This document shows, piece by piece, positions 5,549 through 17,290 of a DNA stretch of 20,308 bases (positions within the stretch are counted from its first letter, which is position 1; every line of letters starts with the position of its first letter). Under the pieces are notes generated by a model, which did not search any database, had not been told where the DNA came from, and saw only the letters and a program-made list of their open reading frames with translations. The stretch lies in the IMG/VR virus record IMGVR_UViG_3300010885_072326, positions 1 to 20,308 of that record; one strand, given 5' to 3'. The stretch comes from a virus. Both the position numbers and the translations under genes were made by a program.

Positions 5549-7429
5549 ATGGCAATGAATCAGAAAGAGCTGGACTTCGTGAACTCTATCAAATCAAAGA
5601 TAACTAAGTATGGTATACCCATCACACTGAGAGAAGCATTAGATTATGGAAGCAATCAATTCATTGATACGATATATAATAACCAGACCACAGAGCTCGT
5701 TGACATGAAAATCGAAAGAGAACTATGTGCCCGCTCTCCCAATTATTTCCTATCTAACTATGCAGTATTTAAAGTAGTTGGTGTTGGTGTTATTCCATAT
5801 TCGCCCTACTATTTTCAACAAGAAACTCTTAAAGATTTACCCACATTAAAAAAAGCTGTATTCATTAAATCTCGTCAGGTCGGTATCTCAACCACTACCG
5901 CTCTCTATTGTCTTTGGAAGTGTTTGTTCAACGCTGGTGAAACTATTGTAATCATTTCCAAATCACAGAAAGCAACCTCTGACTATATGGATGTTGTTCG
6001 CCCCACATTGGATTTCTGCCCACTGTTCCTTAAGCAAGATGTAACACTTAATAACCAGAAAGAACTTAAGTTTGCTAACAGATCCAGAATGATTTGCGAA
6101 GCAGCATCAGAAAACGCTGGTCGTTCTAACTCGGCTTCACTACTAATACTTGATGAAGCCGCATTCTATAAGACAGACAGAATGATTCGTAAGATTGTAG
6201 CATCAGCTATGCCAGCTCTTGTTGCATCCAATGGTGACTTAATAATCATCTCAACTCCCAATGGCCTAGTTGGTCCCGGTCAATGGTATTACGAACAAGT
6301 ACAGAACTTAAAGACCAAGGGCAATACCAATAAAGAAAAACTTATCGAGATTGAATGGTGGAACGTCCCAGACAGAAAAAATACTGATACACCAAGAGGA
6401 TATAGCGATAAACTGGCCGAACTTGAATCCAGACATTACTATAGAAACAAGAATGTCTTTGATGATGGTAAAGCTTTCTTTGCTCCTATTGAAAAGAATT
6501 GGAGAGAGAACGCTTGGTTATCCGCAGCACACAATGACTTGGGAGATGTTCTCTTCCGCCAAGAAATTTTGCACTCCTTTACAATCACTGACCAAACAGT
6601 GTTCGACGATGCAACTCTTGATAAGGTTCGCGATAAAATAAAGTTATTCTCGCCATTAGAAGAGAACACACTACTTAAGTATCCACTTAAAGGATTAGTC
6701 ATATGGAATTACCCAGTACCCAACCATCGCTATATCATAGCATCAGACATTGCTAAAGGTTCTGGCAAAGACAACTCAACTATGCAAGTACTTGACTCAG
6801 ATACACTTGAACAAGTTGCAGAGTATCAAGCCAAAATCACCACATCCAATTTCGCCAAGAACCTACGCAAGCTCGCCACTTATTATAACGAAGCATTCGT
6901 AGTAGTTGAATCAAACTCTATTGGTGAAGCTGTTTTTAATGCTCTGTATTACGACGAGAACCAGCCATATCAGAATATGTATAAACAGAAACTCACAAGA
7001 AACAATCTGTCATTTTTCACTGGATGGCAAACCACTGCCAAATCCCGCGACCTCATTATTAATAACTTCATTGATTACATTAATAACCCAGAGCTATTTG
7101 ATTTGCTATCTATCAAGTCCCCACGTCTTCTACATGAAATGACTACTTGGGTCCACTCAGCTAACGGACGTATTGACCACCTAGATAACTCAAATGACGA
7201 CCTCATCTTCGCATTCTGTCTAGCTTTGTTTCTTAGGTCCAAAGCCGCCCACTCAGGAGCTTCTTTCATTATTAATGAAGAAGGAGATACAATAGAGCCC
7301 AACTCAACACAGAAGCAATCCTTACTTACTTATGAAGAAGAACTCTATCAAGAAGAAATGGTTAAGCAGGCAAACGTTCCCGACATCGACACTTACAATT
7401 GGTTAATCGGAGGACTAAATACAAAGTAG
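5549..7429 (+). CDS. 17: Terminase large subunit (packaging ATPase-nuclease), T4 gp17-like
   Basis: 626 residues from ATG 5549; longer readings from 5498, 5507 or 5510 add an unconvincing Ile-rich leader. It powers DNA translocation into the prohead and cuts the concatemer, docking on the portal (17291). Visible motifs: deviant Walker A KSRQVGIST (107-115), where the usual P-loop Lys is Ile and the Lys sits at the start of the loop, as in lambda gpA; Walker B LLILDE (198-203) with catalytic Glu; coupling motif ISTPNG (about 234-239); and an RNase H-like nuclease with D400 in ASDIAKGSGKD, E454 in VVVESNSIG and D550/D551 in NSNDDLIFAF. Length matches T4 gp17 (610). Its coding strand is richer in C than G, unlike most genes here. 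It is seven bases upstream of the next gene. Confidence 0.95.
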   Translation: MAMNQKELDFVNSIKSKITKYGIPITLREALDYGSNQFIDTIYNNQTTELVDMKIERELCARSPNYFLSNYAVFKVVGVGVIPYSPYYFQQETLKDLPTLKKAVFIKSRQVGISTTTALYCLWKCLFNAGETIVIISKSQKATSDYMDVVRPTLDFCPLFLKQDVTLNNQKELKFANRSRMICEAASENAGRSNSASLLILDEAAFYKTDRMIRKIVASAMPALVASNGDLIIISTPNGLVGPGQWYYEQVQNLKTKGNTNKEKLIEIEWWNVPDRKNTDTPRGYSDKLAELESRHYYRNKNVFDDGKAFFAPIEKNWRENAWLSAAHNDLGDVLFRQEILHSFTITDQTVFDDATLDKVRDKIKLFSPLEENTLLKYPLKGLVIWNYPVPNHRYIIASDIAKGSGKDNSTMQVLDSDTLEQVAEYQAKITTSNFAKNLRKLATYYNEAFVVVESNSIGEAVFNALYYDENQPYQNMYKQKLTRNNLSFFTGWQTTAKSRDLIINNFIDYINNPELFDLLSIKSPRLLHEMTTWVHSANGRIDHLDNSNDDLIFAFCLALFLRSKAAHSGASFIINEEGDTIEPNSTQKQSLLTYEEELYQEEMVKQANVPDIDTYNWLIGGLNTK

Positions 7430-7436
7430 ATAAACT

Positions 7437-8048
7437 ATGACCGAAGATTTCCACCAATCATTATCCAACCTCAACAACCAAATCCACTCTAAACAAAACT
7501 ATTTAAACTTACTCAATCAATCCCTACAAGAGAAACTAAATCCTATCACTCTATTGTTTCATCATATCCAGTTTGAACCAATCACTTATAAACAAGGAGA
7601 GACTCCACACAAAGATGACTTTATTCATAAAGCAACTTATACTCATTATATAGATAGTCCAGTTCAACCACCACAACTTCCCATCTCTCCATCTTATATT
7701 CTAGATACTTCTCTCCATAATAGAATATCACAAGGAAAAATTACAATACATATGTCTAAGACACATAATAGAATAGTATTAGAAGGACCTCCATCCCCAC
7801 AAGGATTATCTATATCGTATGATATAGTTTATTCCCTTAATCCAATTACTCTTATGTACTCAAGTAATTCGTCTAGTAGAAATATCCTTTTGCCAGATAA
7901 CTTCTTTCAGAAAGCAGAAGAGTTTACTAAACTTCTTATTATAGATCAGAAACAAAAGCAATTAGATTCTTTAACAAAGAAAGAAGAAGAGCTATTATCA
8001 GTATTATCTCCCAATGATGTTATCAAAGCCAAATTAGAATATTTATAA
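7437..8048 (+). CDS. Hypothetical protein with terminal coiled coils
   Basis: 203 residues, no family recognised. Residues 1-33 (SNLNNQIHSKQNYLNLLNQS) and 165-195 (KQKQLDSLTKKEEELLSVLS) look coiled-coil-forming; the middle is rich in Pro, Ser, His and Tyr and probably beta or unstructured (SPVQPPQLPISPSYI). It starts at ATG 7437, seven bases after the terminase stop, with no evident Shine-Dalgarno, so reinitiation after the terminase is likely. Base composition is extreme: in 7441-7560 I count 36 C and 5 G on the coding strand, the reverse of the purine-rich coding strands elsewhere in the window. Together with the adjoining non-coding region this suggests a replication-strand effect or a different origin. 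No homology to T4 gp18/gp19, which follow gp17 in T4, is evident. Confidence 0.75.
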   Translation: MTEDFHQSLSNLNNQIHSKQNYLNLLNQSLQEKLNPITLLFHHIQFEPITYKQGETPHKDDFIHKATYTHYIDSPVQPPQLPISPSYILDTSLHNRISQGKITIHMSKTHNRIVLEGPPSPQGLSISYDIVYSLNPITLMYSSNSSSRNILLPDNFFQKAEEFTKLLIIDQKQKQLDSLTKKEEELLSVLSPNDVIKAKLEYL

Positions 8049-8138
8049 TTGTTAAAAAACGTTATTCTTTCATTAACTTACTCTAATTACTATTAATTCC
8101 CAGTAACTACATTATCATTTCCAATAACTATTCAAATG

Positions 8139-8147
8139 TTATCCACA
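8139..8147 (+). promoter_or_regulatory. DnaA box, perfect consensus
   Basis: TTATCCACA, identical to the strong E. coli DnaA box. It is the leftmost of the cluster, about 275 bases from the others. Confidence 0.6.
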
Positions 8148-8407
8148 TAAATGTACACATGATGCTATATAATCATTGCTATTATGATATCGTATTCAAC
8201 TTTACAGGGGGCCATTTCAACAGTCCCCGCTCTCTCCTCATACCTTCAATTAATTCCTTCCACAACCTCTTAGGGATAAACCTACTCACCTATTTATTCC
8301 CGCAAAAGCTTAAATATTGCCATTATTTAATCTATTATTCCCTTAATCTATTTAAATATTTAATAAAATAGTTTTGGCCCTATACCTTTTTGAAATCTAT
8401 ACACAAA

Positions 8408-8431
8408 CTATCCACAGGCAACTTATCCACA
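8408..8431 (+). promoter_or_regulatory. Pair of DnaA boxes
   Basis: CTATCCACA (8408-8416, one mismatch) and TTATCCACA (8423-8431, perfect), same orientation, start to start 15 bases apart; a weaker ACATCCACA follows at 8435-8443. Close spacing favours cooperative binding. Confidence 0.6.
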
Positions 8432-8492
8432 TATACATCCACAGATTAAATTATATAATTATTCATGAGTTTAAATGTTAAATTGTGTATGA

Positions 8493-8501
8493 TGTGGATA
8501 A
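8493..8501 (-). promoter_or_regulatory. DnaA box, perfect consensus, inverted
   Basis: TGTGGATAA on + (TTATCCACA on -). It lies between the A+T-rich 8444-8485 block and the first tiny gene at 8553, so bound DnaA could also affect that operon. Confidence 0.6.
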
Positions 8502-8552
8502 TTTAAGAAGCAAAGGAAAAGCCAAACAAACTTCCCACTGTATATATATATT

Positions 8553-8750
8553 ATGAACAACAGATTCTATACATGGCAAGGATTAAATAATGAAACACTT
8601 ACATTCAATAAGCCCACTAAGGTACAAAGAATATATAACACAAACATCCCATCCAAAGGTTATTATATAGCATGTGATGCTGACATCCTTACTTATAATA
8701 GAAGAGTAATAAGAAACAATTTAATATTAGATAGTAGGAATATTAAATGA
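8553..8750 (+). CDS. Hypothetical protein, 65 residues, first of three coupled tiny genes
   Basis: Basic, Asn- and Tyr-rich, no family recognised; a probable beta segment is KGYYIACDADILTYNRRVI. ATG 8553 lacks a Shine-Dalgarno (the leader is an alternating TATATATATA tract). Its TGA overlaps the next ATG (ATGA at 8747-8750), so translation of the trio is coupled, which supports that all three are real despite their size. Small basic proteins of this type in phages are often early host-takeover factors; that is inference. Confidence 0.6.
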   Translation: MNNRFYTWQGLNNETLTFNKPTKVQRIYNTNIPSKGYYIACDADILTYNRRVIRNNLILDSRNIK

Positions 8751-8917
8751 ATCATTCAGGCCCATCATCTAGACCATGTAGTATAGGATTCATATCCAAT
8801 TACTATAAGGCATCTATTAAATCCCATAGAACCAATCTACCATCAGTTCCTTATAAGTGTATATCCAATAAGGTTTACTTTGCCTATAGAGGAAAGATTG
8901 TAGGAGTAATGACATGA
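8747..8917 (+). CDS. Hypothetical protein, 56 residues, coupled tiny gene
   Basis: 56 residues, basic, with an Ser/Pro N-terminus (MNHSGPSSRP) and a C-terminal KVYFAYRGKIVGVM segment. Its ATG overlaps the upstream TGA and its TGA overlaps the downstream ATG (ATGA at 8914-8917), the same four-base overlap twice running, which is the main evidence that it is coding. Function unknown; two cysteines 30 residues apart do not form a recognised zinc motif. Confidence 0.55.
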   Translation: MNHSGPSSRPCSIGFISNYYKASIKSHRTNLPSVPYKCISNKVYFAYRGKIVGVMT

Positions 8918-9108
8918 TACTTACCAATAGACATATAGATAGATTAGACAGTACACAGAATGCGCGCATCGCTAGAGCAAATGATATAACAAAATTCTAT
9001 AAAGGAATAGCTTCCTACTTAAATGATGTATGGTATAATCCAGATCCATCTGTTAAATATATTATATATGATACAGTAAGCGGGTCAGTACTTAAGATTA
9101 TACGTTGA
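8914..9108 (+). CDS. Hypothetical protein, 64 residues, last of coupled trio
   Basis: 64 residues. The helical N-terminal half (NARIARANDITKFYKGIASY) is followed by a probable beta hairpin, VKYIIYDTVSGSVLKIIR. It starts in an ATGA overlap with the 56-residue gene. The C-terminal hairpin is loosely like the ends of its two neighbours (aromatic strand, Gly turn, basic strand), perhaps from old duplication, but too short to prove. A G+C-rich hairpin downstream ends the unit. Confidence 0.6.
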   Translation: MILTNRHIDRLDSTQNARIARANDITKFYKGIASYLNDVWYNPDPSVKYIIYDTVSGSVLKIIR

Positions 9109-9150
9109 AGAGATTTAAAAACGGGTAGGCAGGAATTGAGGGCTTATGGC

Positions 9151-9214
9151 GGGGGTGGGGTGTATAGACCAACTCAAAACTTCACGCCCCCAAAAGGCCC
9201 CCAGTTTATTTTTT
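9151..9214 (+). terminator. Putative G+C-rich terminator
   Basis: In a very A+T-rich setting, GGGGG (9151-9155) and GGGGTGT (9157-9163) can pair with CCCCC (9198-9202) and ACGCCCC (9184-9190, one G-U), followed by TTTATTTTTT at 9205-9214. It sits after the tiny-gene trio and before the EmrE-like gene. The internal asymmetry makes the fold uncertain; the G runs could also form a quadruplex. Confidence 0.5.
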
Positions 9215-9282
9215 CCTATAATATAAGTGTAAAGGTGAAGCTCCAACACTATTTTTACGTATATAGAAATAAAGGTGAACGA

Positions 9283-9615
9283 ATGGAAAAGGCAATAAGC
9301 TTACTATTAATTTTTATTGGAGAATTGCTGGCTGTTTATTCTGAGATGTATATTATAAAATATGGAATAGACATAAAGCATTTGCTATGGGTAGTGTTCA
9401 CAATAACAATGGCGGGCATCCCATTACTTGCTGGCTACTATTTAGGTTATAAGGCTTTCAGTAATGCTTGGCCGATAGCAGTTGCATCCATTAGTTCTAT
9501 AGTACTAGTTGAACCACCTTTAATATTATTAATGACGGGTAATTTACCTACAGCAAGTCACATAGTAGGTTTTATGTTGGCGACACTAGGACTAATAATA
9601 ACAGTCATATTTTAA
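9283..9615 (+). CDS. Four-helix EmrE/EamA-like (small multidrug resistance-type) membrane protein
   Basis: 110 residues from ATG 9283, with AAAGGTGA at 9271-9278 well spaced; the frame is open further upstream to 9136 but runs through the terminator. Four hydrophobic helices at about 4-26, 32-53, 59-80 and 86-108. Glu14 lies in helix 1 (FIGELLAVYSE), the same residue number and setting as the essential proton- and drug-binding E14 of EmrE, and helix 4 (SHIVGFMLATLGLIITVI) has the EmrE helix-4 pattern. The family works as dual-topology dimers exporting cations, guanidinium or polyamine-like compounds against protons. A phage copy could alter host membrane transport. Substrate unknown; a single-repeat EamA protein is equally possible. 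TATAAT at 9217-9222 could be its -10, with no matching -35. Confidence 0.7.
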   Translation: MEKAISLLLIFIGELLAVYSEMYIIKYGIDIKHLLWVVFTITMAGIPLLAGYYLGYKAFSNAWPIAVASISSIVLVEPPLILLMTGNLPTASHIVGFMLATLGLIITVIF

Positions 9616-9619
9616 CCCC

Positions 9620-9648
9620 TTGACAAAATCCCCATCTTATAATATATT
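9620..9648 (+). promoter_or_regulatory. Sigma70-type promoter
   Basis: TTGACA (9620-9625) and TATATT (9643-9648) are exactly 17 bases apart, the ideal spacing. An overlapping TATAAT at 9638-9643 would be only 12 bases from the -35. Predicted transcription starts near 9655, so the run of small genes to 11968 is probably transcribed by unmodified host polymerase, i.e. early. Confidence 0.7.
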
Positions 9649-9654
9649 AAACCT

Positions 9655-9813
9655 ATGAAGAATTATATGCATGAAACTAGTGAGAGAAATATTCTTTTTA
9701 AATCCAAGTACCGTATTGGAGTTATCAGGTATAAAACTGGCAGACTAGTCTTCCCGACCTTAATCATAAGAAAACAATATTTGGTGATTATAGGAACTTT
9801 ATTAAACTTTTAA
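9655..9813 (+). CDS. Possible 52-residue basic protein
   Basis: An open frame from ATG 9655 to TAA 9813. Residues 1-26 are polar and basic, 30-52 hydrophobic (LVFPTLIIRKQYLVIIGTLL), perhaps one membrane segment or a small beta sheet. The predicted promoter would start transcription almost at this ATG, making the message leaderless, and there is no ribosome site, so the frame may be translated poorly, start at ATG 9667, or be only the leader of the next gene. No family recognised. Confidence 0.35.
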   Translation: MKNYMHETSERNILFKSKYRIGVIRYKTGRLVFPTLIIRKQYLVIIGTLLNF

Positions 9814-9830
9814 AAGAAAGGGGTAGTCAA

Positions 9831-10034
9831 ATGTTGAACAACGATACACATTTCATGTTCTTTGAACCTATAGACAGTAATAATGAAAGAAACTGGAGTA
9901 GAGTCTATAATGATGTTTGGAAGAAAGGGGAATCTTATGAAGAGCGATACTACACAAGAAAATATGGTAGACATAGAAAGGTTATAGTAGATAAGACAAT
10001 GGAACAGTTTTTGAAAAAGCATAACAGTTTTTAA
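9831..10034 (+). CDS. Hypothetical protein, 67 residues
   Basis: Charged and aromatic, with the pattern NNERNWSRVYNDVWKKGESY then a basic YYTRKYGRHRKVIV stretch; no family recognised. ATG 9831 has a strong AAGGGG at 9818-9823 with seven-base spacing, the best ribosome site of this operon, so it is probably its first well translated gene. Its TAA is immediately followed by the next ATG with no gap. Size, charge and promoter context suggest an early host-directed phage protein (inference). Confidence 0.65.
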   Translation: MLNNDTHFMFFEPIDSNNERNWSRVYNDVWKKGESYEERYYTRKYGRHRKVIVDKTMEQFLKKHNSF

Positions 10035-10241
10035 ATGAATTACTTTGTAGCAAATATAAAGAAAATAAATAGAACTGTTAGACTCATTAACAGGCCCCTG
10101 TCTAGGTATAAAGAAAATATAGGTCATGTACTGATAAACTCATTAGATGAGAATGATGATTATTCTATGATGATAATTAATAAAAGAAGAGGAAGAGATA
10201 CTTACATTAAGTTAAAGAATGATATCTATAGGAGATGGTGA
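10035..10241 (+). CDS. Hypothetical protein, 68 residues
   Basis: Basic (many Arg, Lys and Asn), with NIGHVLINSLDENDDYSMMIINKRRGRD suggesting two beta strands joined by an acidic turn (quoted piece covers residues 28 on; key features are HVLI and MMIINKRR). No own ribosome site; the ATG follows directly after the previous stop, so it should be translated by reinitiation. Its last codons contain AGGAG (10230-10234), the ribosome site for the next gene. Function unknown. Confidence 0.6.
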   Translation: MNYFVANIKKINRTVRLINRPLSRYKENIGHVLINSLDENDDYSMMIINKRRGRDTYIKLKNDIYRRW

Positions 10242-10242
10242 G

Positions 10243-10590
10243 TTGAATATTGAAGCAATTGATTTTAAAGTCAAGCCTAGAAGATTAAAAGTTACTTGGA
10301 CTACTTTAAATGAAGACCAGCTAAATGGTATGATGAACCTTAACTCTGAAGAAGAACTAATTAAATTTCCTAGTAGTATAGCTGGAAGTTTGGCTGGTAG
10401 AGTGCCATCAAAGAAAGAACAACTGAAAGAGCGTAAAGGAAAAAAATTTGTGGATTCGTATGGAAAATGGTTAAAGGAAAAAAATAAAAATTTGCCATAC
10501 AACGATAATTATGAAGCATACGATTTAAACGATGAGGCGTATGACATTAAAAGTAACTTGTTAAAAGAATATATGTTGGAGAGATTGTAA
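10243..10590 (+). CDS. Small protein with gp23-like motif, unknown function
   Basis: 115 residues from TTG 10243, chosen because AGGAG (10230-10234) lies eight bases upstream and the preceding gene stops at 10241; an ATG at 10219 would overlap that gene and has no ribosome site. The N-terminal part reads IDFKVKPRRLKVTWTTLNED then NLNSEEELIKF, which resembles the 'RKLKAxWT...DLxxxHGLDAEAEL' segment conserved in T4-type major capsid proteins (gp23). The rest (SLAGRVPSKKEQLKERKGKK, then an acidic Tyr/Asp-rich tail) does not, and the protein is four times shorter than gp23. It could be a decoy or assembly factor mimicking the capsid segment, or the similarity may be chance. Confidence 0.6.
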   Translation: MNIEAIDFKVKPRRLKVTWTTLNEDQLNGMMNLNSEEELIKFPSSIAGSLAGRVPSKKEQLKERKGKKFVDSYGKWLKEKNKNLPYNDNYEAYDLNDEAYDIKSNLLKEYMLERL

Positions 10591-10592
10591 AG

Positions 10593-10617
10593 TTAATATA
10601 TCCTGAGGATATATTAA
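10593..10617 (+). promoter_or_regulatory. Perfect hairpin holding the ribosome site of the 43-residue gene
   Basis: Inverted repeat TTAATATATCC (10593-10603) and GGATATATTAA (10607-10617), loop TGA. The Shine-Dalgarno-like GAGGA (10605-10609) is split between loop and right arm, and the TTG start follows directly at 10618, so folding would hide it. No T tract follows, so it is not a terminator. Confidence 0.55.
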
Positions 10618-10749
10618 TTGAAACGAAGATACCTAGAAAAAATAAAATTTGTTAGTAGGATAAAAGACCTGATGGTCGTTCTATTTTTTACGCTTGCTCT
10701 TGTGCCAGTAGTGTTGGCTTTTTATATTATGCTGAGTGTGTTGCTATGA
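10618..10749 (+). CDS. Small single-helix membrane protein (43 residues)
   Basis: From TTG 10618, with GAGGA nine bases upstream in the hairpin: a basic N-terminus (KRRYLEKIKFVSRIKD) followed by one strong membrane helix (VVLFFTLALVPVVLAFYIML, residues 21-40). The positive-inside rule puts the N-terminus in the cytoplasm. The TGA overlaps the hemerythrin ATG (ATGA at 10746-10749), so the two are translationally coupled and might act together at the membrane. ATG 10672 is an alternative start but would leave mostly the helix. No family recognised. Confidence 0.5.
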   Translation: MKRRYLEKIKFVSRIKDLMVVLFFTLALVPVVLAFYIMLSVLL

Positions 10750-11135
10750 CAAGTATAAACGATAACATAGACAAACAACACAATGACATTATAAATGGTT
10801 TGAATAGCTTGCTAAATACCGACATGAAAAAAATGGAAGATGTTAAGATTGCTATGCAATTGTGTAGTTATTATATCAATGAACATTTTAAAAGTGAAGA
10901 AGAACTTATGCTTGGCGTTGATTACCTAAAAGAAGCATTTGAAAAACACAGGAGTGAGCATAAGAGATTAAGTCTTGATTATCAGAAGTTATTATTAAAA
11001 TCTGTTCACTCAACCATACATGAATACTTTCCAATGGCGCACGATTTTGTGGAGTCATTTTTAAATAAGATAGAATTTCATATTGAATTCTTTGATGCAC
11101 CAATTAAAGAATGGATTGATAACAGAAAACTTTAA
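10746..11135 (+). CDS. Bacteriohemerythrin (non-heme di-iron oxygen-binding protein)
   Basis: 129 residues, a single hemerythrin domain. All seven di-iron ligands of bacteriohemerythrins are present with the right spacing: H12 (DKQHNDI), H47 and E51 (NEHFKSEEELM), H68 and H72 (EKHRSEH), H112 and D117 (FHIEFFD). The domain binds O2 reversibly at a mu-oxo di-iron site and in bacteria serves oxygen delivery, sensing or scavenging; some bind NO. The soluble protein should be cytoplasmic. It has no ribosome site of its own and starts within the stop of the 43-residue membrane peptide, so it depends on that gene's translation. Length and ligand set look intact and functional. In a phage it would be an auxiliary gene, perhaps buffering oxygen or protecting iron enzymes; that role is inference. 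Confidence 0.88.
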   Translation: MTSINDNIDKQHNDIINGLNSLLNTDMKKMEDVKIAMQLCSYYINEHFKSEEELMLGVDYLKEAFEKHRSEHKRLSLDYQKLLLKSVHSTIHEYFPMAHDFVESFLNKIEFHIEFFDAPIKEWIDNRKL

Positions 11136-11145
11136 AGATAATATT

Positions 11146-11466
11146 ATGAAATACGAAAATAAGCATGAAACAAATACAGAAAAAAGAATTATTGAATCTC
11201 TAATTCATCAAGCACAAATCAAGAGTGGAAACACTGGTGTAGAAAAAGCTGTTAATGATAAAAAGACTATTGGTACTGCCAAATTAGCCCAAGAAAGAAT
11301 AGTAAATGCTTTAAACCCAGAGCATAAGAAGTTTAATGATAAGAGAAATAGAAAGAGAAGAGAAAAGAGAGCTTTATCAAAGAAAGGTACTAGTGATGCT
11401 ATGCGTAATGTTTTGGATAGTGTAGCTAATGCCAAAGATTTAATGCACCATTTAACGGGGAAATGA
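11146..11466 (+). CDS. Hypothetical highly basic protein, 106 residues
   Basis: Start ATG 11146 follows the hemerythrin stop by ten bases (the frame is open back to 11083, inside the hemerythrin gene, which is less likely). It is rich in Lys, Arg, Asn and Glu, with a very basic stretch FNDKRNRKRREKRALSKKG near residues 65-84, probably nucleic-acid-binding or disordered, and a helical C-terminus (DAMRNVLDSVANAKDLMHHL). No family recognised. Only a weak AAAGATA precedes the start. Its stop is one base before the next gene's ATG. Confidence 0.65.
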   Translation: MKYENKHETNTEKRIIESLIHQAQIKSGNTGVEKAVNDKKTIGTAKLAQERIVNALNPEHKKFNDKRNRKRREKRALSKKGTSDAMRNVLDSVANAKDLMHHLTGK

Positions 11467-11467
11467 A

Positions 11468-11968
11468 ATGAATTTAAAAGAATTACTTGAAACAATTAAA
11501 TCAAAGAAATTTAAAGAGATGACATCTTGTGAAGATCCAGATGATATCAAAGAAAGTGTTGGAAAATCAATATTCGAAAACTACAAAGAAGCACAAGAAC
11601 AATTTGACATTATCGAATCAGCAGTTGAAGAGATGGCAATACAAAACAATATGGACCCAGAAACTCTTTGGGGAGAATTTGAAAATTTGTCGGACGAAGA
11701 GTTAATTCAATTTGCAGAAGATTCAAAAGGCTATAAAAGTGAAACAGGCGGACTTACTCAAAAAGGACGCGATCATTACAATCATGAAACGGGTAGTCAT
11801 TTAAAGGCACCAGTAACGACACCACCAAGTAAGTTGAAGCGTGGAAGTAAAGCAGCCAAAAGAAGAAAATCTTTTTGTGCTCGTATGAGTGGTTTAAAAG
11901 GACCAATGAAAAAGCCAAATGGTAAGCCAACCAGAAAGGCATTAGCTTTAAGAAAGTGGAATTGCTAG
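11468..11968 (+). CDS. Protein with conserved phage C-terminal 'KSFCARM...RKWNC' domain
   Basis: 166 residues. Acidic N-terminal half (to about 88), then GGLTQKGRDHYNHETGSHLK, SKLKRGSKAAKRRKSFCARM and a terminal TRKALALRKWNC. This last 75-residue module is one I recognise as recurring, almost unchanged, in many phage and some bacterial proteins (I believe Pfam DUF6321); its function is unknown, and the two conserved Cys and many Arg/Lys suggest metal or nucleic-acid binding. ATG 11468 has GGGGA about seven bases upstream. The N-terminus MNLKELLETIKSKK carries an LLE site (6-8) like the other candidate capsid-targeted proteins, so it may be a virion protein. It is the last gene before the terminator. 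Confidence 0.75.
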   Translation: MNLKELLETIKSKKFKEMTSCEDPDDIKESVGKSIFENYKEAQEQFDIIESAVEEMAIQNNMDPETLWGEFENLSDEELIQFAEDSKGYKSETGGLTQKGRDHYNHETGSHLKAPVTTPPSKLKRGSKAAKRRKSFCARMSGLKGPMKKPNGKPTRKALALRKWNC

Positions 11969-11981
11969 CAAGGAAGAAAAA

Positions 11982-12008
11982 AGCCACTTAATTAAGTGGC
12001 TATATTTT
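11982..12008. terminator. Bidirectional rho-independent terminator
   Basis: AGCCACTTAATTAAGTGGCT (11982-12001) is a perfect 20-base palindrome with a T run on its right (12005-12010) and an A run on its left (11977-11982), between the stops of converging genes at 11968 and 12009. Confidence 0.9.
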
Positions 12009-13130
12009 TTAAATATTAAAGTTATCGTAAATTTTGTTTCTTTGATTATTTACTTTAATAAATGTAGTTCTTTTATTTAGATGTTTTAATTTTGTAGCTC
12101 CAACATAAGTAAGAGCAGAATTTAATCCACCAGTAATTTGATTTAATGTATTTGATAATTTACCTCTAAATGGAATTAAAGAGGTAGATCCTTCGCTTGT
12201 TTTATAATCTGGTATTTCTACATAATATTTTTCCATAGCAGTAGTTGATGACATTCCATAAAACTTGGCAAATTTTGGAATTTGTATTTTTAATGAATTT
12301 GAACTTGTTGAAGAAGGATCAGGAATCAAATCATATACAATATTTTCTTCGCTTGTGTTTTCTTCGTGAGCAGAAAGCATTCCGCCAATCATTACAAAAC
12401 CATCACCAGAAGCCAATGCTTTTATAACATCTGCTGGTTCATTACAACCACCATCTGCCACAATCCAACCACCCAAACCTTTAACGGCATTACTGCACTC
12501 AATATTACAAGAAAGCATAGGATAGCCAACCCCAGTCATTTTTCTAGTGGTACATCCAGAACCACCACCGATTCCTATTTTTACGACATCTGCACCAGCC
12601 ATTATAATAGCTTCTGCCATATTAGGGGTAGCAACATTTCCAGCAATAATAATGAGCTTAGGAAATAAATCCCTTGCTTCTTTTACAGCATCTAAGAATG
12701 TTTCAGTATATCCATTAGGAACATCAAGACAAAGCCACATCTGTTCTTTTCCACAATCTCTATGTGCTTGAAATACATCCTTCATTTTTTGATTGTCCTC
12801 TTCTCTAATTCCAAATGTAGGAATAATGTAGGTAGGATTGTGGGTAGACAACTTTAGAGATACTTTCCAATCATCTACTGTGTAGAACTTATGAATAGCT
12901 GTAAGCATCATTCTTTCTGCCATTACATATGCAGCATTGAATGTGCTAACTGTATCCATATTTGCAGAAATAATTGGTACGCCTCTCCAGCTTACTTTTG
13001 AATGTGGAAAAGTAAATTCTCTTGTAATGTTAACATCTCGCCTACTTGTAATTGATGTTGATTTATCTGCTCTCTGTGGAACAATAAGAACATCACTATA
13101 ATCTAATTTTATATCTTCTATGATTAGCAT
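12009..13130 (-). CDS. guaC: GMP reductase
   Basis: 373 residues. It catalyses NADPH-dependent deamination of GMP to IMP and ammonia, returning guanine nucleotides to the common purine precursor (EC 1.7.1.7). A TIM-barrel protein of the IMPDH/GMPR family: LDYSDVLIVPQR near the N-terminus, ISANMDTVST, the catalytic loop GIGGGSGCTTRKMTGVGYP with the reactive Cys, the phosphate site VADGGCNEPADVIKALASGD and FVMIGGMLSAHEE, then FYGMSS and the C-terminal GGLNSALTYVGATKLKHL and KRTTFIKV. CTTR, the YGMSS...EG segment and no CBS domains point to GMP reductase rather than IMP dehydrogenase. It is some 25 residues longer than the bacterial enzyme, mainly an insert (VYDLIPDPSSTSSNSLKIQI) before YGMSS. 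ATG 13130 has AGGAG well spaced. It is alone on the minus strand between a terminator and a divergent gene, i.e. a self-contained cassette. Confidence 0.92.
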   Translation of the reverse strand: MLIIEDIKLDYSDVLIVPQRADKSTSITSRRDVNITREFTFPHSKVSWRGVPIISANMDTVSTFNAAYVMAERMMLTAIHKFYTVDDWKVSLKLSTHNPTYIIPTFGIREEDNQKMKDVFQAHRDCGKEQMWLCLDVPNGYTETFLDAVKEARDLFPKLIIIAGNVATPNMAEAIIMAGADVVKIGIGGGSGCTTRKMTGVGYPMLSCNIECSNAVKGLGGWIVADGGCNEPADVIKALASGDGFVMIGGMLSAHEENTSEENIVYDLIPDPSSTSSNSLKIQIPKFAKFYGMSSTTAMEKYYVEIPDYKTSEGSTSLIPFRGKLSNTLNQITGGLNSALTYVGATKLKHLNKRTTFIKVNNQRNKIYDNFNI

Positions 13131-13168
13131 TTTTTCTCCTATACAAAATATATACTAGGATGTAAATA

Positions 13169-13573
13169 ATGTCAAGAAAAGATAAATCTATGAACACTCA
13201 AGAAATCAAAAATAATATAGAAGATTTGGCAGACTATTTAGGTGTTAGTGCTGCACTGATGATGAAGTTTGTGTTGAGTAAAGAACATTTAATTATATCT
13301 AGTACCAATGAGTTTGCACCTATAAAAAAATTTAGTGGTTTAACTGGGTCTAATTTGTTAAGAGATATATGGAACAAGTATTCTAAAGAACACCCTGAAG
13401 TTAAGCCCGGAACTGTATTCGGGTACTCTAAAAAGAAAGTAGCTAGTGTAATAGGAACCAGAACAAAAAAGCCAATATTAAGAGTTCATCTATTTGAAGA
13501 AGAAGATGGAAGTCTTGATTATAATGGTGTTCAATATCCACTAGTATTTGCTAGTGGATCCACGGCAATATGA
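13169..13573 (+). CDS. Hypothetical protein, 134 residues
   Basis: No family recognised. Helical N-terminal half with IEDLADYLGVSAALMMKFVL, then a probable beta-rich part (KPILRVHLFEEEDGSLDYNG). ATG 13169 is preceded by AGGA (13157-13160) eight bases upstream; ATG 13190 is an alternative. It is divergent from guaC across 38 bases containing TATACT (13151-13156) that might be its -10, but I see no good -35. It precedes the large virion-like gene by 21 bases and probably shares its transcript. Confidence 0.65.
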   Translation: MSRKDKSMNTQEIKNNIEDLADYLGVSAALMMKFVLSKEHLIISSTNEFAPIKKFSGLTGSNLLRDIWNKYSKEHPEVKPGTVFGYSKKKVASVIGTRTKKPILRVHLFEEEDGSLDYNGVQYPLVFASGSTAI

Positions 13574-13594
13574 TCTACAATAGAAGATTTTTTA

Positions 13595-15790
13595 ATGGAA
13601 ACAAAAAAGTTGTATAAAATGGCACAAATAGCTGAAGAAGAAGCTAAGAAAATCGCTGATCATAAAGTAGTTGGAAAGATTTCAAATAAAACATTGAAGG
13701 AATATATTGAAATGAATGAAAGTTCCGCTGAAAAAATGAAGAGTGATTTAGTTATAATTAGAAAAGAATTCCTTAATGGCAAACTAGATAACGAGATTTA
13801 TAGAAGAACTTGGATTAAGCCAATGATCGATTATATAAAAAAGTCGGGAACAGGAATAATAAATTTTGAGACAAATGACAAAACAGCTGAGGAATTGTTT
13901 GGGTCAGATTACAGAGCGGTTAAAAAAATTAAGAACGATTACTCTTCAAATCATTTATATAATGTAGAAATAGAGTCCTGTGGATATTATGCTATTATAT
14001 ATGAGAATGGGTATAACGAGTATTTCTTTGATAAGGAAGTACCACAAAGCTTTGCTGAATTTGAGAAGAGTTTTAATAGAAGAATAAATATTTTGGAACT
14101 AGATGACGATGCCAGTAAAAAGCTTTTATCAGGAGCGCCACCCTTTGGTAAGAAAGGAAACAAACAATTGAAAGAAAGTTTTTTAACACTAATTGAAGCA
14201 GCAACAGAAGAAGAAAAGAAGAAGCAAGAGAAATATAGAAAGAAGAGCGATGTTTATAAAGAAAGACAAGTAAATATAGAAAACAAAGCAACAACACAAA
14301 TTGTTCCAAAGGATGTTCATAACTCAAAAAATGCCTATCAGAATGATATTGCTTTAAGTGTTGGTAGAATTGTTAAGTCAATGGTTAATGGAAAGAATGG
14401 AGAATACAACAGGGAGGCTATTCTTTTAAAACAAAATGTAGTAAGTGAATTCAAGAAGAAGCATCTATCAGAAATTAATGAAGAGTCATTGAAGTTCACA
14501 AAAGATGATGCTAGATATAAATTTGGTATCGACTTCATTAATAAGATATTTGGCGATAAAGAAAGAAAGACAGCTCTCGAATTAGTAAGAGCTTGTAATG
14601 CTTCTTTAAGTAAGGGTAGTGAAGGTAGTGAAGGTTATCTAATCAATGCTGGTGAACATAGCTGGAACCATACACAAAGAATAAGCGAAGGTGGAAACCA
14701 TAGAACTATTAGCTTAATGTATATTGGAACACCAATAGAAGCAGCAGTTAATAAAGCAAAAACTGATGGTTCTGATATAGCATCTAAAATAGAGGATATT
14801 TCAAATGCTGGACACTTCCGCAACAGTATAGGATTTGTTCGTTATAGTATTGTAAGTGATAGATGGATACATATTGACGCTATTCAGACAGATTTTTTCA
14901 ATAAGGTAACAGGAAGTATTAGAGGAGCTTCTGTTTCGAAAGAAGACCAGAAACTTGTATCATTTATAGTAGGCAAACAAGACACTGTATTTAAAACTCT
15001 TATTAGTAAAATGAAGGCAGACAATCCAAAAGTATCTATTTACACAATGAATAATGCTGAAATGGTTAAGAAAGTAGAACATATGCAAAGTGATGAGAAG
15101 GTAGGTAGTTTGTACACTTCTTATCCAACTAAACTAGGGTTTGTTAATAAGCCAGTTAGTTATTTAACAAGCTCACTAAATACAAGAAAGAGAAATGACA
15201 CTAAAGGTTCTCCAAGTGAATTTCAATTCGATCAGAATGAAAAGACTTTTTTACATGATATTGGAGCAAATAAAGAGCAAGAAGTTATCCCAATGGCTTG
15301 GCTCGATAAACTTCATATTCTTTTAAAGAGTGATGAGTTTTGGAAAGGCGAGCTACAAGGTGGACATCATGTAGGTTATAAGAAAGAGAGCCAAAAAGAT
15401 GCTGTTGAAATAATTGGACATAAAATCGCAGAAGAAATGGATAGTACTTTCAGAGATAGTGGCGAAGAACTTTTTAGATATTCACTGACATTTGTTCATC
15501 AGATATTTAATACTATCAAATCAACTGTTGAAAATAGAATTAATATGTTAGCAAGAGAAGGTCAAGATTGGAATGGCGATCCAGAATTTAGAAAGAAATA
15601 TGATGGTAGAATAATTTCATTCATTGGTTCATTTAGAGAAATGATAATTTGGAAAGTAGAACAAAAATTTAATGAATTAAACCGTGAAATAGAAAAGAGC
15701 AATAAAGGTGCTGGTAATACTAGCATATGGTGGGCAAATAAATCAATGCTTCATGAAGGGTTTCAATTGAAGGTAACAGATTTACTTTAA
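13595..15790 (+). CDS. Large probable virion protein of unknown function
   Basis: 731 residues, Lys- and Glu-rich, without membrane segments. Regions seen: a charged coiled-coil-prone stretch (about 205-235, EAATEEEKKKQEKYRKKSD), a central folded part with GEHSWNHTQRISEGGNHRTI (about 352-372), and HFRNSIGFVRYSIVSDRWIH followed by IDAIQTDFFNK (about 408-437). The last resembles the 'VRFxDR...IEEIQSDW' segment found in large polyvalent proteins of phages and mobile elements, which are thought to be packaged or injected; this is a weak, recalled similarity. The C-terminus is helical. Length and place (between guaC and the portal cluster) suit an internal or tail-associated structural protein. 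ATG 13595 has only a weak AGAAG upstream. Its 3' end overlaps the convergent zincin gene by nine bases. Confidence 0.75.
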   Translation: METKKLYKMAQIAEEEAKKIADHKVVGKISNKTLKEYIEMNESSAEKMKSDLVIIRKEFLNGKLDNEIYRRTWIKPMIDYIKKSGTGIINFETNDKTAEELFGSDYRAVKKIKNDYSSNHLYNVEIESCGYYAIIYENGYNEYFFDKEVPQSFAEFEKSFNRRINILELDDDASKKLLSGAPPFGKKGNKQLKESFLTLIEAATEEEKKKQEKYRKKSDVYKERQVNIENKATTQIVPKDVHNSKNAYQNDIALSVGRIVKSMVNGKNGEYNREAILLKQNVVSEFKKKHLSEINEESLKFTKDDARYKFGIDFINKIFGDKERKTALELVRACNASLSKGSEGSEGYLINAGEHSWNHTQRISEGGNHRTISLMYIGTPIEAAVNKAKTDGSDIASKIEDISNAGHFRNSIGFVRYSIVSDRWIHIDAIQTDFFNKVTGSIRGASVSKEDQKLVSFIVGKQDTVFKTLISKMKADNPKVSIYTMNNAEMVKKVEHMQSDEKVGSLYTSYPTKLGFVNKPVSYLTSSLNTRKRNDTKGSPSEFQFDQNEKTFLHDIGANKEQEVIPMAWLDKLHILLKSDEFWKGELQGGHHVGYKKESQKDAVEIIGHKIAEEMDSTFRDSGEELFRYSLTFVHQIFNTIKSTVENRINMLAREGQDWNGDPEFRKKYDGRIISFIGSFREMIIWKVEQKFNELNREIEKSNKGAGNTSIWWANKSMLHEGFQLKVTDLL

Positions 15791-16585
15791 ATCTTGATAA
15801 GCTTGGTAAACTTTTCGAAGAAATCTCTTATAGGTCTTTCCGTCACCAATTGCTTTCTTCATCTTGTTTCTCATAATTAATTCATCGGGATCTTCATCGT
15901 TTACTATGGCATTTGGCAACTTTCTATCCATCAGAGCTTTATAATCCCGAACCACTTTTCCTTTACCAAGGCCTTCAATATTTAATACATCAGCTAAGTA
16001 GTCATTGATGGATTTTCCGGATTGTTTAACTGCTTTAGCGATTTGAACTGCAAATGCACCTACTTCTTGTGTGTCACTTAAATAGTTCTGGTCGTTGTAT
16101 AAAGTAATCAAACCTTTTAGTCTTTCTACTGAAACGCCATCAAGGCCTTTTGTACTTATTTGATTAAGACCTTTTGTGTTAAAATCAAAATCATTGCCCT
16201 TTTCTTTTCTTGATTTTTGTTGTAGTAGGTGTGTATATTCGTGAGTCAAAGCTTGAATCAATCTATTGACAGTGGTTTCAAGCTCTTCTTTGTTTACTTC
16301 GGATAAAGCATCTCTTATGTCATCAAACATCTTCTTAGATATTGCAATTTTCTTTGTGGTTTCATTGTAGGTAGCATTTCTTCCAATTAGTTCTTTAATA
16401 ACAAAGTTGTTGCCGTCTTTGTTTAATTTCATGTGAATCTTAGTGACTTTTGAACTTGCCACTCCAGTTCTATCTCTCTCTGACATTTTCTTTAATGATT
16501 CAAGTTCTTTCATCAAATCTTCTTTTATCCAGTCAAAATCTGGCATGTCTTTTGCAATGCTTTCTAAGAATAGTTTTAGTTTCAT
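15782..16585 (-). CDS. Zincin metalloprotease-like protein (HEYTH)
   Basis: 267 residues. The zinc motif HEYTH is at 115-119 in LIQALTHEYTHLLQQKS, and a likely third ligand E174 lies in DTQEVGAFAVQIA, the gluzincin-type arrangement (HExxH plus a downstream Glu helix). It is therefore probably an active zinc peptidase; target unknown. The N-terminus MKLKLFLESIAKDM resembles the start of the other possible capsid-targeted proteins here, with FLE (6-8) instead of the usual [L/I]-x-E. The C-terminal 50 residues are basic. ATG 16585 has only GGAAAAG upstream, at long spacing; a 12-base inverted repeat (16588-16624) begins two bases before it. Its stop overlaps the 731-residue gene by nine bases, with no terminator between. 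Candidate roles are processing of virion proteins or attack on a host protein. Confidence 0.8.
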   Translation of the reverse strand: MKLKLFLESIAKDMPDFDWIKEDLMKELESLKKMSERDRTGVASSKVTKIHMKLNKDGNNFVIKELIGRNATYNETTKKIAISKKMFDDIRDALSEVNKEELETTVNRLIQALTHEYTHLLQQKSRKEKGNDFDFNTKGLNQISTKGLDGVSVERLKGLITLYNDQNYLSDTQEVGAFAVQIAKAVKQSGKSINDYLADVLNIEGLGKGKVVRDYKALMDRKLPNAIVNDEDPDELIMRNKMKKAIGDGKTYKRFLRKVYQAYQDLK

Positions 16586-16587
16586 AC

Positions 16588-16624
16588 AGTTATCTTTTCC
16601 GTAAATAGGTATGAAAAGATAACT
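16588..16624. repeat. 12-base inverted repeat between zincin and homing endonuclease genes
   Basis: AGTTATCTTTTC (16588-16599) and GAAAAGATAACT (16613-16624), loop of 13. It fills the 60-base divergent gap with the start of both genes close by. No T tract follows, so it is not a standard terminator; operator, RNA hairpin or an insertion scar of the homing element are possible. Confidence 0.75.
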
Positions 16625-16628
16625 CTAT

Positions 16629-16644
16629 AAGGATATCCTTAACA
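16629..16644 (+). promoter_or_regulatory. Ribosome site buried in a palindrome before homing endonuclease
   Basis: AAGGATATCCTT (16629-16640) is a perfect palindrome containing the Shine-Dalgarno AAGGA, followed by AACA and ATG 16645. Self-pairing would mask the site, as hairpins do for I-TevI and other T4 homing endonucleases on early transcripts. It matches the large terminase leader closely. Confidence 0.6.
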
Positions 16645-17274
16645 ATGATAGGAATTTATAAAATAACAAACAAAATAAATGGAAAAGTTTACATCGGACA
16701 ATCTTGGGACATAGAAAAAAGATGGGCTAATGAAAAAAGTGGCAGAACAAACAACCATCTACTTAAGTCATTTAAAAAGTATGGCTTCGAAAATTTCCAT
16801 TTTGAAGTTCTGGAGAATTTGTGTGAAAACACCCCACAAGAATATTTGGATATAAAAGAAGATTTTTATATATTAAAAACAAATTCTCTAGACCCTAATT
16901 TTGGATATAATAAAAAAAGAGGTGGGCACACAGGAAAGCATACTCAAGAAACTAAAATCAAACTAATGGAACTTAATCTTGGAGAAAACAACCCTAATTT
17001 TGGAAAAAAGGCATCTGAAGAGACAAGAAAAAAAATGTCTGAAATTAGAGTTGGGGACAAAAATTTCTTTTTTAACAAAAAACATAATGAAGAAACAAAA
17101 AGAAAGATATCAGAAGCACAAAGTAAAAAAGTAATATGTGTAGAAACTGAAATAATTTATAAAAGCTTAAGAGAAGCAAGTAAAAGCTTTGGTCTAACAC
17201 CTAGGTCAATTGCACAAGCAATTGAAAACAACTGGAAGTCCGCCGGTCTTCACTGGAAGTATTATGTTATATAA
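16645..17274 (+). CDS. GIY-YIG homing endonuclease (free-standing, NUMOD-type)
   Basis: 209 residues. GIY-YIG nuclease domain at 1-95: G3-I4-Y5, V15-Y16-I17-G18, catalytic-type R26 (DIEKRW) and E72 (KEDFYIL). Then NUMOD3 DNA-binding repeats, NPNFGKKASEETRKKMSE (about 114-131) and FFFNKKHNEETKRKISEAQ (about 139-157), and a C-terminal NUMOD1-like helix-turn-helix, SLREASKSFGLTPRSIAQA (about 174-192) ending in SAGLHWKYY. This is the complete I-TevI/Seg-type plan. Such enzymes cut a relative's genome near their own insertion point and copy themselves in; the target is probably in or beside the portal gene. It is inserted between the divergent zincin gene and the portal, and its stop lies 17 bases before the preferred portal start. 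All key residues are intact. Confidence 0.93.
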   Translation: MIGIYKITNKINGKVYIGQSWDIEKRWANEKSGRTNNHLLKSFKKYGFENFHFEVLENLCENTPQEYLDIKEDFYILKTNSLDPNFGYNKKRGGHTGKHTQETKIKLMELNLGENNPNFGKKASEETRKKMSEIRVGDKNFFFNKKHNEETKRKISEAQSKKVICVETEIIYKSLREASKSFGLTPRSIAQAIENNWKSAGLHWKYYVI

Positions 17275-17290
17275 TGGAAAATTTATTAAG

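Follow-up and report, generated by a model that had tools for sequence, protein, structure and literature searches.

Among large phages, bacteriophage T4 is the textbook example of replication that starts independently of host DnaA, and DnaA is not known to take part in T4 initiation. Host DnaA assists the replication of phage P1 from oriR and that of phage lambda, both of which are temperate and have initiators of their own (RepA and O, respectively). In T4, replication is initiated from R-loops (PMC5333043). Bacterial origins (oriC) combine DnaA boxes with a DNA-unwinding element, often accompanied by DnaA-trios (PMC8287927), and for the lytic Pseudomonas phage vB_PseuGesM_254 a DnaA-box origin was predicted by Ori-Finder (PMC11512268). 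Clusters of DnaA boxes in viral DNA are already known and are not new; none was found for a T4-like phage in the literature searched, a limited set.

Gene context of the phage fragment

The window, that is, the whole stretch of DNA that was analyzed, comprises 20308 bases and is an entire virus record that was not cut from a larger genome sequence. PHROG profiles recovered a T4-type large terminase (phrog_2), a gp20-type portal (phrog_213), and a late sigma factor (phrog_234), which supports the T4-like identity proposed from the sequence alone. The gene order sigma-g2-terL-portal-g19248-g19694 is common to the window and many relatives. In the terL and portal trees, the latter built by a quick method, the window forms a long branch of poorly supported placement, with no clear conflict. 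An insert of 9.8 kb separates terL and portal, compared to mostly 0.02–3.4 kb, and in a few cases 6.1–6.5 kb, in relatives. This insert (7430–17290) includes small ORFs, an IMPDH/GMP-reductase-like gene (12009–13130), and a GIY-YIG endonuclease (16645–17274). The boxes are located inside the insert, in the following surroundings:

5549–7429, + strand: terL, T4-type large terminase, with a C-rich coding strand
7437–8048, + strand: orphan ORF of 203 aa, adjoining the left edge of the gap
8049–8552: longest non-coding gap of the window, 504 bp, 71% A+T, containing the entire origin-like region
8553–8750, + strand: small ORF of 65 aa, adjoining the right edge of the gap, with no match in PHROG

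With the same ORF set, the second-longest non-coding gap measures 215 bp; the ranking depends on the ORF set used, and with this set the siting of the boxes in a long non-coding stretch, as described in the sequence-only reading, is borne out. The orphan ORF has no relative in PHROG, Pfam, phages, or viral contigs, and its structure model (pLDDT 41.5) is unusable. The window encodes no DnaA gene. Comparison of the gap DNA with phages or plasmids yielded nothing meaningful, and an Rfam search gave no match. Rfam was also without a match for another short non-coding gap, at 9120–9215, which consists of a G-rich stretch followed by a C-rich stretch.

A non-random array of DnaA boxes

Altogether, three exact boxes, one box with a single mismatch, and three boxes with two mismatches are present at the locus:

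8139–8147, + strand: exact DnaA box TTATCCACA, an outlier 258 bp to the left of the array
8397–8405, + strand: weak box CTATACACA, 2 mismatches, 2 bp ahead of the 8408 box
8408–8416, + strand: box CTATCCACA, 1 mismatch
8423–8431, + strand: exact DnaA box TTATCCACA
8435–8443, + strand: weak box ACATCCACA, 2 mismatches
8484–8492, − strand: inverted weak box TCATACACA, 2 mismatches, immediately next to the exact box at 8493
8493–8501, − strand: exact DnaA box TTATCCACA, inverted

The coordinates and strands of the three exact boxes and of the one-mismatch box at 8408 had all been given correctly from the sequence alone, and a search of all 20308 bases returned no further exact TTATCCACA, as had been claimed. 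Adding the three two-mismatch copies (8397+, 8435+, and 8484−), which had been overlooked in the sequence-only reading, to the right-hand group forms an array from 8397 to 8501, in which direct sites follow each other head to tail with gaps of 2–6 bp and precede two inverted boxes that abut each other. The boxes at 8423 and 8493 are part of a 13-nt inverted repeat (8420–8432/8492–8504, 92%).

The array is not a product of chance. Markov models of the local sequence (order 0–2) yielded 0.008–0.036 exact boxes per 504 bp when sequences were simulated, and three exact boxes were reached in none of the 3000 runs per model. A weighted array score, which takes into account boxes with up to 2 mismatches within a span of 105 bp, amounted to 11 at the array; no score above 8 arose in 2000 order-2 simulations, and the rest of the window did not exceed 3. 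The clustering beyond chance that had been suspected was thus confirmed. The earlier chance estimate of about 0.3 exact copies per 20 kb is close to the 0.19 exact boxes per 20.3 kb that are predicted from the rate in relatives (20 exact boxes in 66 relative records, 2.18 Mb). Sites with at most one mismatch are not in excess in the whole window (ten versus 6.45 expected); what stands out is that exact copies are clustered, not the total of near-matches.

Unwinding candidate and GC skew

A low-stability, A+T-rich segment that could serve as an unwinding element adjoins the array, and the window has its minimum of cumulative skew nearby:

8322–8371: least stable 50 bp of the 20.3 kb by nearest-neighbour energies (at scales of 100 or 200 bp the least stable DNA lies in other places), 88% A+T; candidate DNA-unwinding element
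8850: global minimum of cumulative G-C in the window, flat from about 8500 to 9100

The candidate element stops 25 bp short of the array, on its left side. With the published definition of DnaA-trios (PMC8287927), applied within 16 bp of a box, three minimal trios were found, only beside the box at 8139, and scattered one-mismatch boxes equal or exceed this number.

The skew changes from −0.20 in the 2 kb to the left of the cluster to +0.13 in the 2 kb to the right, an equally large rise being observed at 7% of the positions in the window. These values were read on a fragment, and the minimum is local to the window, not that of a whole genome. In addition, the skew is confounded by gene direction and by a C-rich block from 5.5 to 9.1 kb; from terL to 8.75 kb, the coding strand is C-rich at all codon positions. 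Gene direction alone does not account for the negative left flank, because the rightward terL is C-rich (third-position GC skew of −0.22 to −0.38), unlike the terL genes that have the same position relative to portal in relatives (about −0.1 to +0.4). An origin at 8.5 kb predicts a negative third-position skew for the rightward genes at 61–1596, whereas it is positive. Two near-complete relatives have their skew minima at points of divergence in gene direction, and DHH-family genes are located within about 3.5 kb of these minima (G104, 150165–151805; G090, 8686–10419). Thus, the skew lends weak support to an origin. In the block from 5549 to 8750, C-ending codons and TCC/CCC are used much more often than in either flank, and this unusual codon usage could have come about by import or by strand bias close to an origin.

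Relatives and other viral DNA

Neither viral contigs nor phage records contained a close relative of the phage. Compared with relatives in viral contigs, the terminase is mostly 37–46% and the portal mostly 37–53% identical, with 26% as the weakest value, and the nearest relatives (about 44–53% protein identity) are all devoid of the insert. The exact boxes in the 66 relative records are at least 600 bp apart, the distance of the nearest pair. A further set of 11 genomes of T4-like or large phages, 2.18 Mb in total, was assembled via a shared GMP-reductase-like gene (two genomes), by name (T4), and by terL or portal (the rest); it contained 13 exact boxes, with 7.8 kb between the nearest pair. 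A box search in relatives had been proposed, with loss of the boxes in close relatives as evidence against a function. The search revealed no cluster in the 66 records or the 11 genomes, and the argument from loss does not apply, as the nearest relatives lack the whole insert. Among the records compared, the cluster is specific to this fragment, and, with close relatives not found, its absence elsewhere is no sign of loss. The Bac_DnaA domain (PF00308) was absent from eight relative records, and the positive controls were detected.

At least 120 further viral contigs contain tandem exact boxes, and clusters of four or more boxes are mostly intergenic (80 viral contigs examined). Of the 23 viral-contig clusters that contain at least three boxes, 16 show a left-to-right rise in skew (p = 0.09), weakly indicating the same direction as here. 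Some of the box-bearing viral contigs may be plasmid or bacterial DNA. No T4-type portal was detected in 38 of them, but the same PHROG search missed the portal in every control genome, which makes this negative result a weak one. In four viral contigs (L086, L109, L117, and L120), seven exact DnaA boxes lie within 600 bp, and on L109, a short locus, the skew flips strongly, from −0.48 to +0.22.

Several candidates were rejected. The three boxes of the 484-kb phage LR756508 extend over 2.3 kb, within which the skew trend continues without a break, and are likely due to chance, as are three one-mismatch boxes in L011, the contig with the closest portal relative. The terL gene of L011 (30–2978) is interrupted in frame by an intein-like sequence. 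A comparison of the box spacing with bacterial genomes yielded one Firmicutes contig with a box-dense, oriC-like region and no hint as to the host.

Alternative explanations

The number of boxes is similar to that in Escherichia coli datA, which has two consensus boxes and four boxes with one misfit (PMC5835720), and the locus might, accordingly, be a decoy or modulator that soaks up or inactivates host DnaA during infection and so blocks host initiation. However, datA action requires an IHF site between the boxes (PMC5835720), and no exact match to the IHF consensus exists between 5.7 and 16.2 kb, and thus none near the boxes at 8.1–8.5 kb, making a decoy less likely. The adjacent least-stable DNA would have no role in a decoy, and a single site per genome would presumably titrate little DnaA before the phage has multiplied. 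A decoy titrating host DnaA, also raised in the sequence-only reading, is therefore weakened by the missing IHF consensus and by the presence of an unwinding-type element, and we consider it unlikely. A role of the boxes as binding sites for another protein, such as an initiator or regulator of the phage that recognizes a similar motif, or of DnaA as a promoter regulator of the ORFs at 8553–9108, would be in line with a promoter-like match (8432–8459) that overlaps the right part of the array. Yet the exact motif is that of a strong bacterial DnaA box, and promoter-like matches in 7300–10800 are not above chance (20 versus 19.2 expected); such a role seems unlikely.

The 9.8-kb insert, which relatives lack, could also have brought in the origin of a mobile or plasmid-type module with its own initiator, in which the DnaA boxes would play an auxiliary part, as they do in many origins of plasmids; the orphan ORF at 7437–8048 could be the initiator, and codon usage differs from 5.5 to 8.75 kb. 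Against such a module, no Rep-like domain was found in the proteins scanned with PHROGs and Pfam, the region 7300–9700 contains two-copy families only and no iterons (multi-copy direct repeats), no match of plasmid DNA to the gap exceeds 53 bp, and the block of odd codon usage takes in terL itself. We regard this origin as improbable. The distinct codon usage and skew of the genes from 5.5 to 8.75 kb, and the reliance on a single metagenome fragment, could also point to a contig chimera or to a cluster that arose by accident in DNA rich in C and in A+T. Such an artefact or accident is quite improbable, as the gene order from sigma to g19694 is preserved across the block as in relatives, and the cluster was never reached in simulations of the local composition.

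A putative DnaA-dependent origin

The combination of a box array, adjacent least-stable DNA, an intergenic site, and a local skew minimum makes an origin the best reading of the locus. Of the functions considered from the sequence alone, a DnaA-dependent origin is thus the best supported, although unproven: on balance, the region from about 8140 to 8510 probably serves a T4-related phage as an oriC-like origin that works with host DnaA. Counting against it are that no relative shares the cluster, that only a fragment is available, that the DnaA-trios are minimal, that the skew is confounded, and that initiation in T4 itself proceeds from R-loops (PMC5333043).

The anatomy described above is observed, and every step from DnaA binding through melting and helicase loading to initiation is deduced from it. 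Host DnaA would bind to the strong (exact) boxes and then fill in along the array; it would melt the segment 8322–8371, and a helicase would be loaded on the melted DNA, leading to early bidirectional replication. The origin module would have arrived with the terL-portal insert and would not be ancestral. More tentatively, a phage of the T4 lineage may have acquired an oriC-like origin that recruits host DnaA for early replication and either replaces or supplements R-loop- and recombination-driven initiation, a scenario that we regard as possible but somewhat doubtful. In a relative of T4 this would come as a surprise, and it rests on one metagenome fragment without conservation. If true, the initiation step can be swapped in T4 relatives, and phage replication would be tied to the level of host DnaA and to those hosts in which DnaA recognizes TTATCCACA. 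Such an origin would also supply a short, cloneable piece of DNA.

Comparison with known systems

The locus resembles bacterial oriC in its tight intergenic array of TTATCCACA boxes, the adjacent least-stable A+T-rich DNA, and the local GC-skew minimum nearby. It differs in being phage-borne and downstream of terL, in having three exact boxes only and no convincing DnaA-trios, and in the absence of a DnaA gene from the window. With E. coli datA (PMC5835720), it shares the clustering of consensus and misfit DnaA boxes, but it is without an IHF consensus site and has adjacent unwinding-type DNA. T4 belongs to the same wide virus lineage, as judged from terminase and portal; its three exact boxes, however, are scattered over 169 kb, and those of the P1 record, also three in number, stand 11.7–23.5 kb apart, unlike the cluster described here. 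For vB_PseuGesM_254, too, an A+T-rich region with DnaA boxes was proposed as the origin, and both proposals are predictions only. The region described here differs from it in that it is found in a T4-like phage (phrog_2, phrog_213, and phrog_234), was tested against chance, and was compared with relatives.
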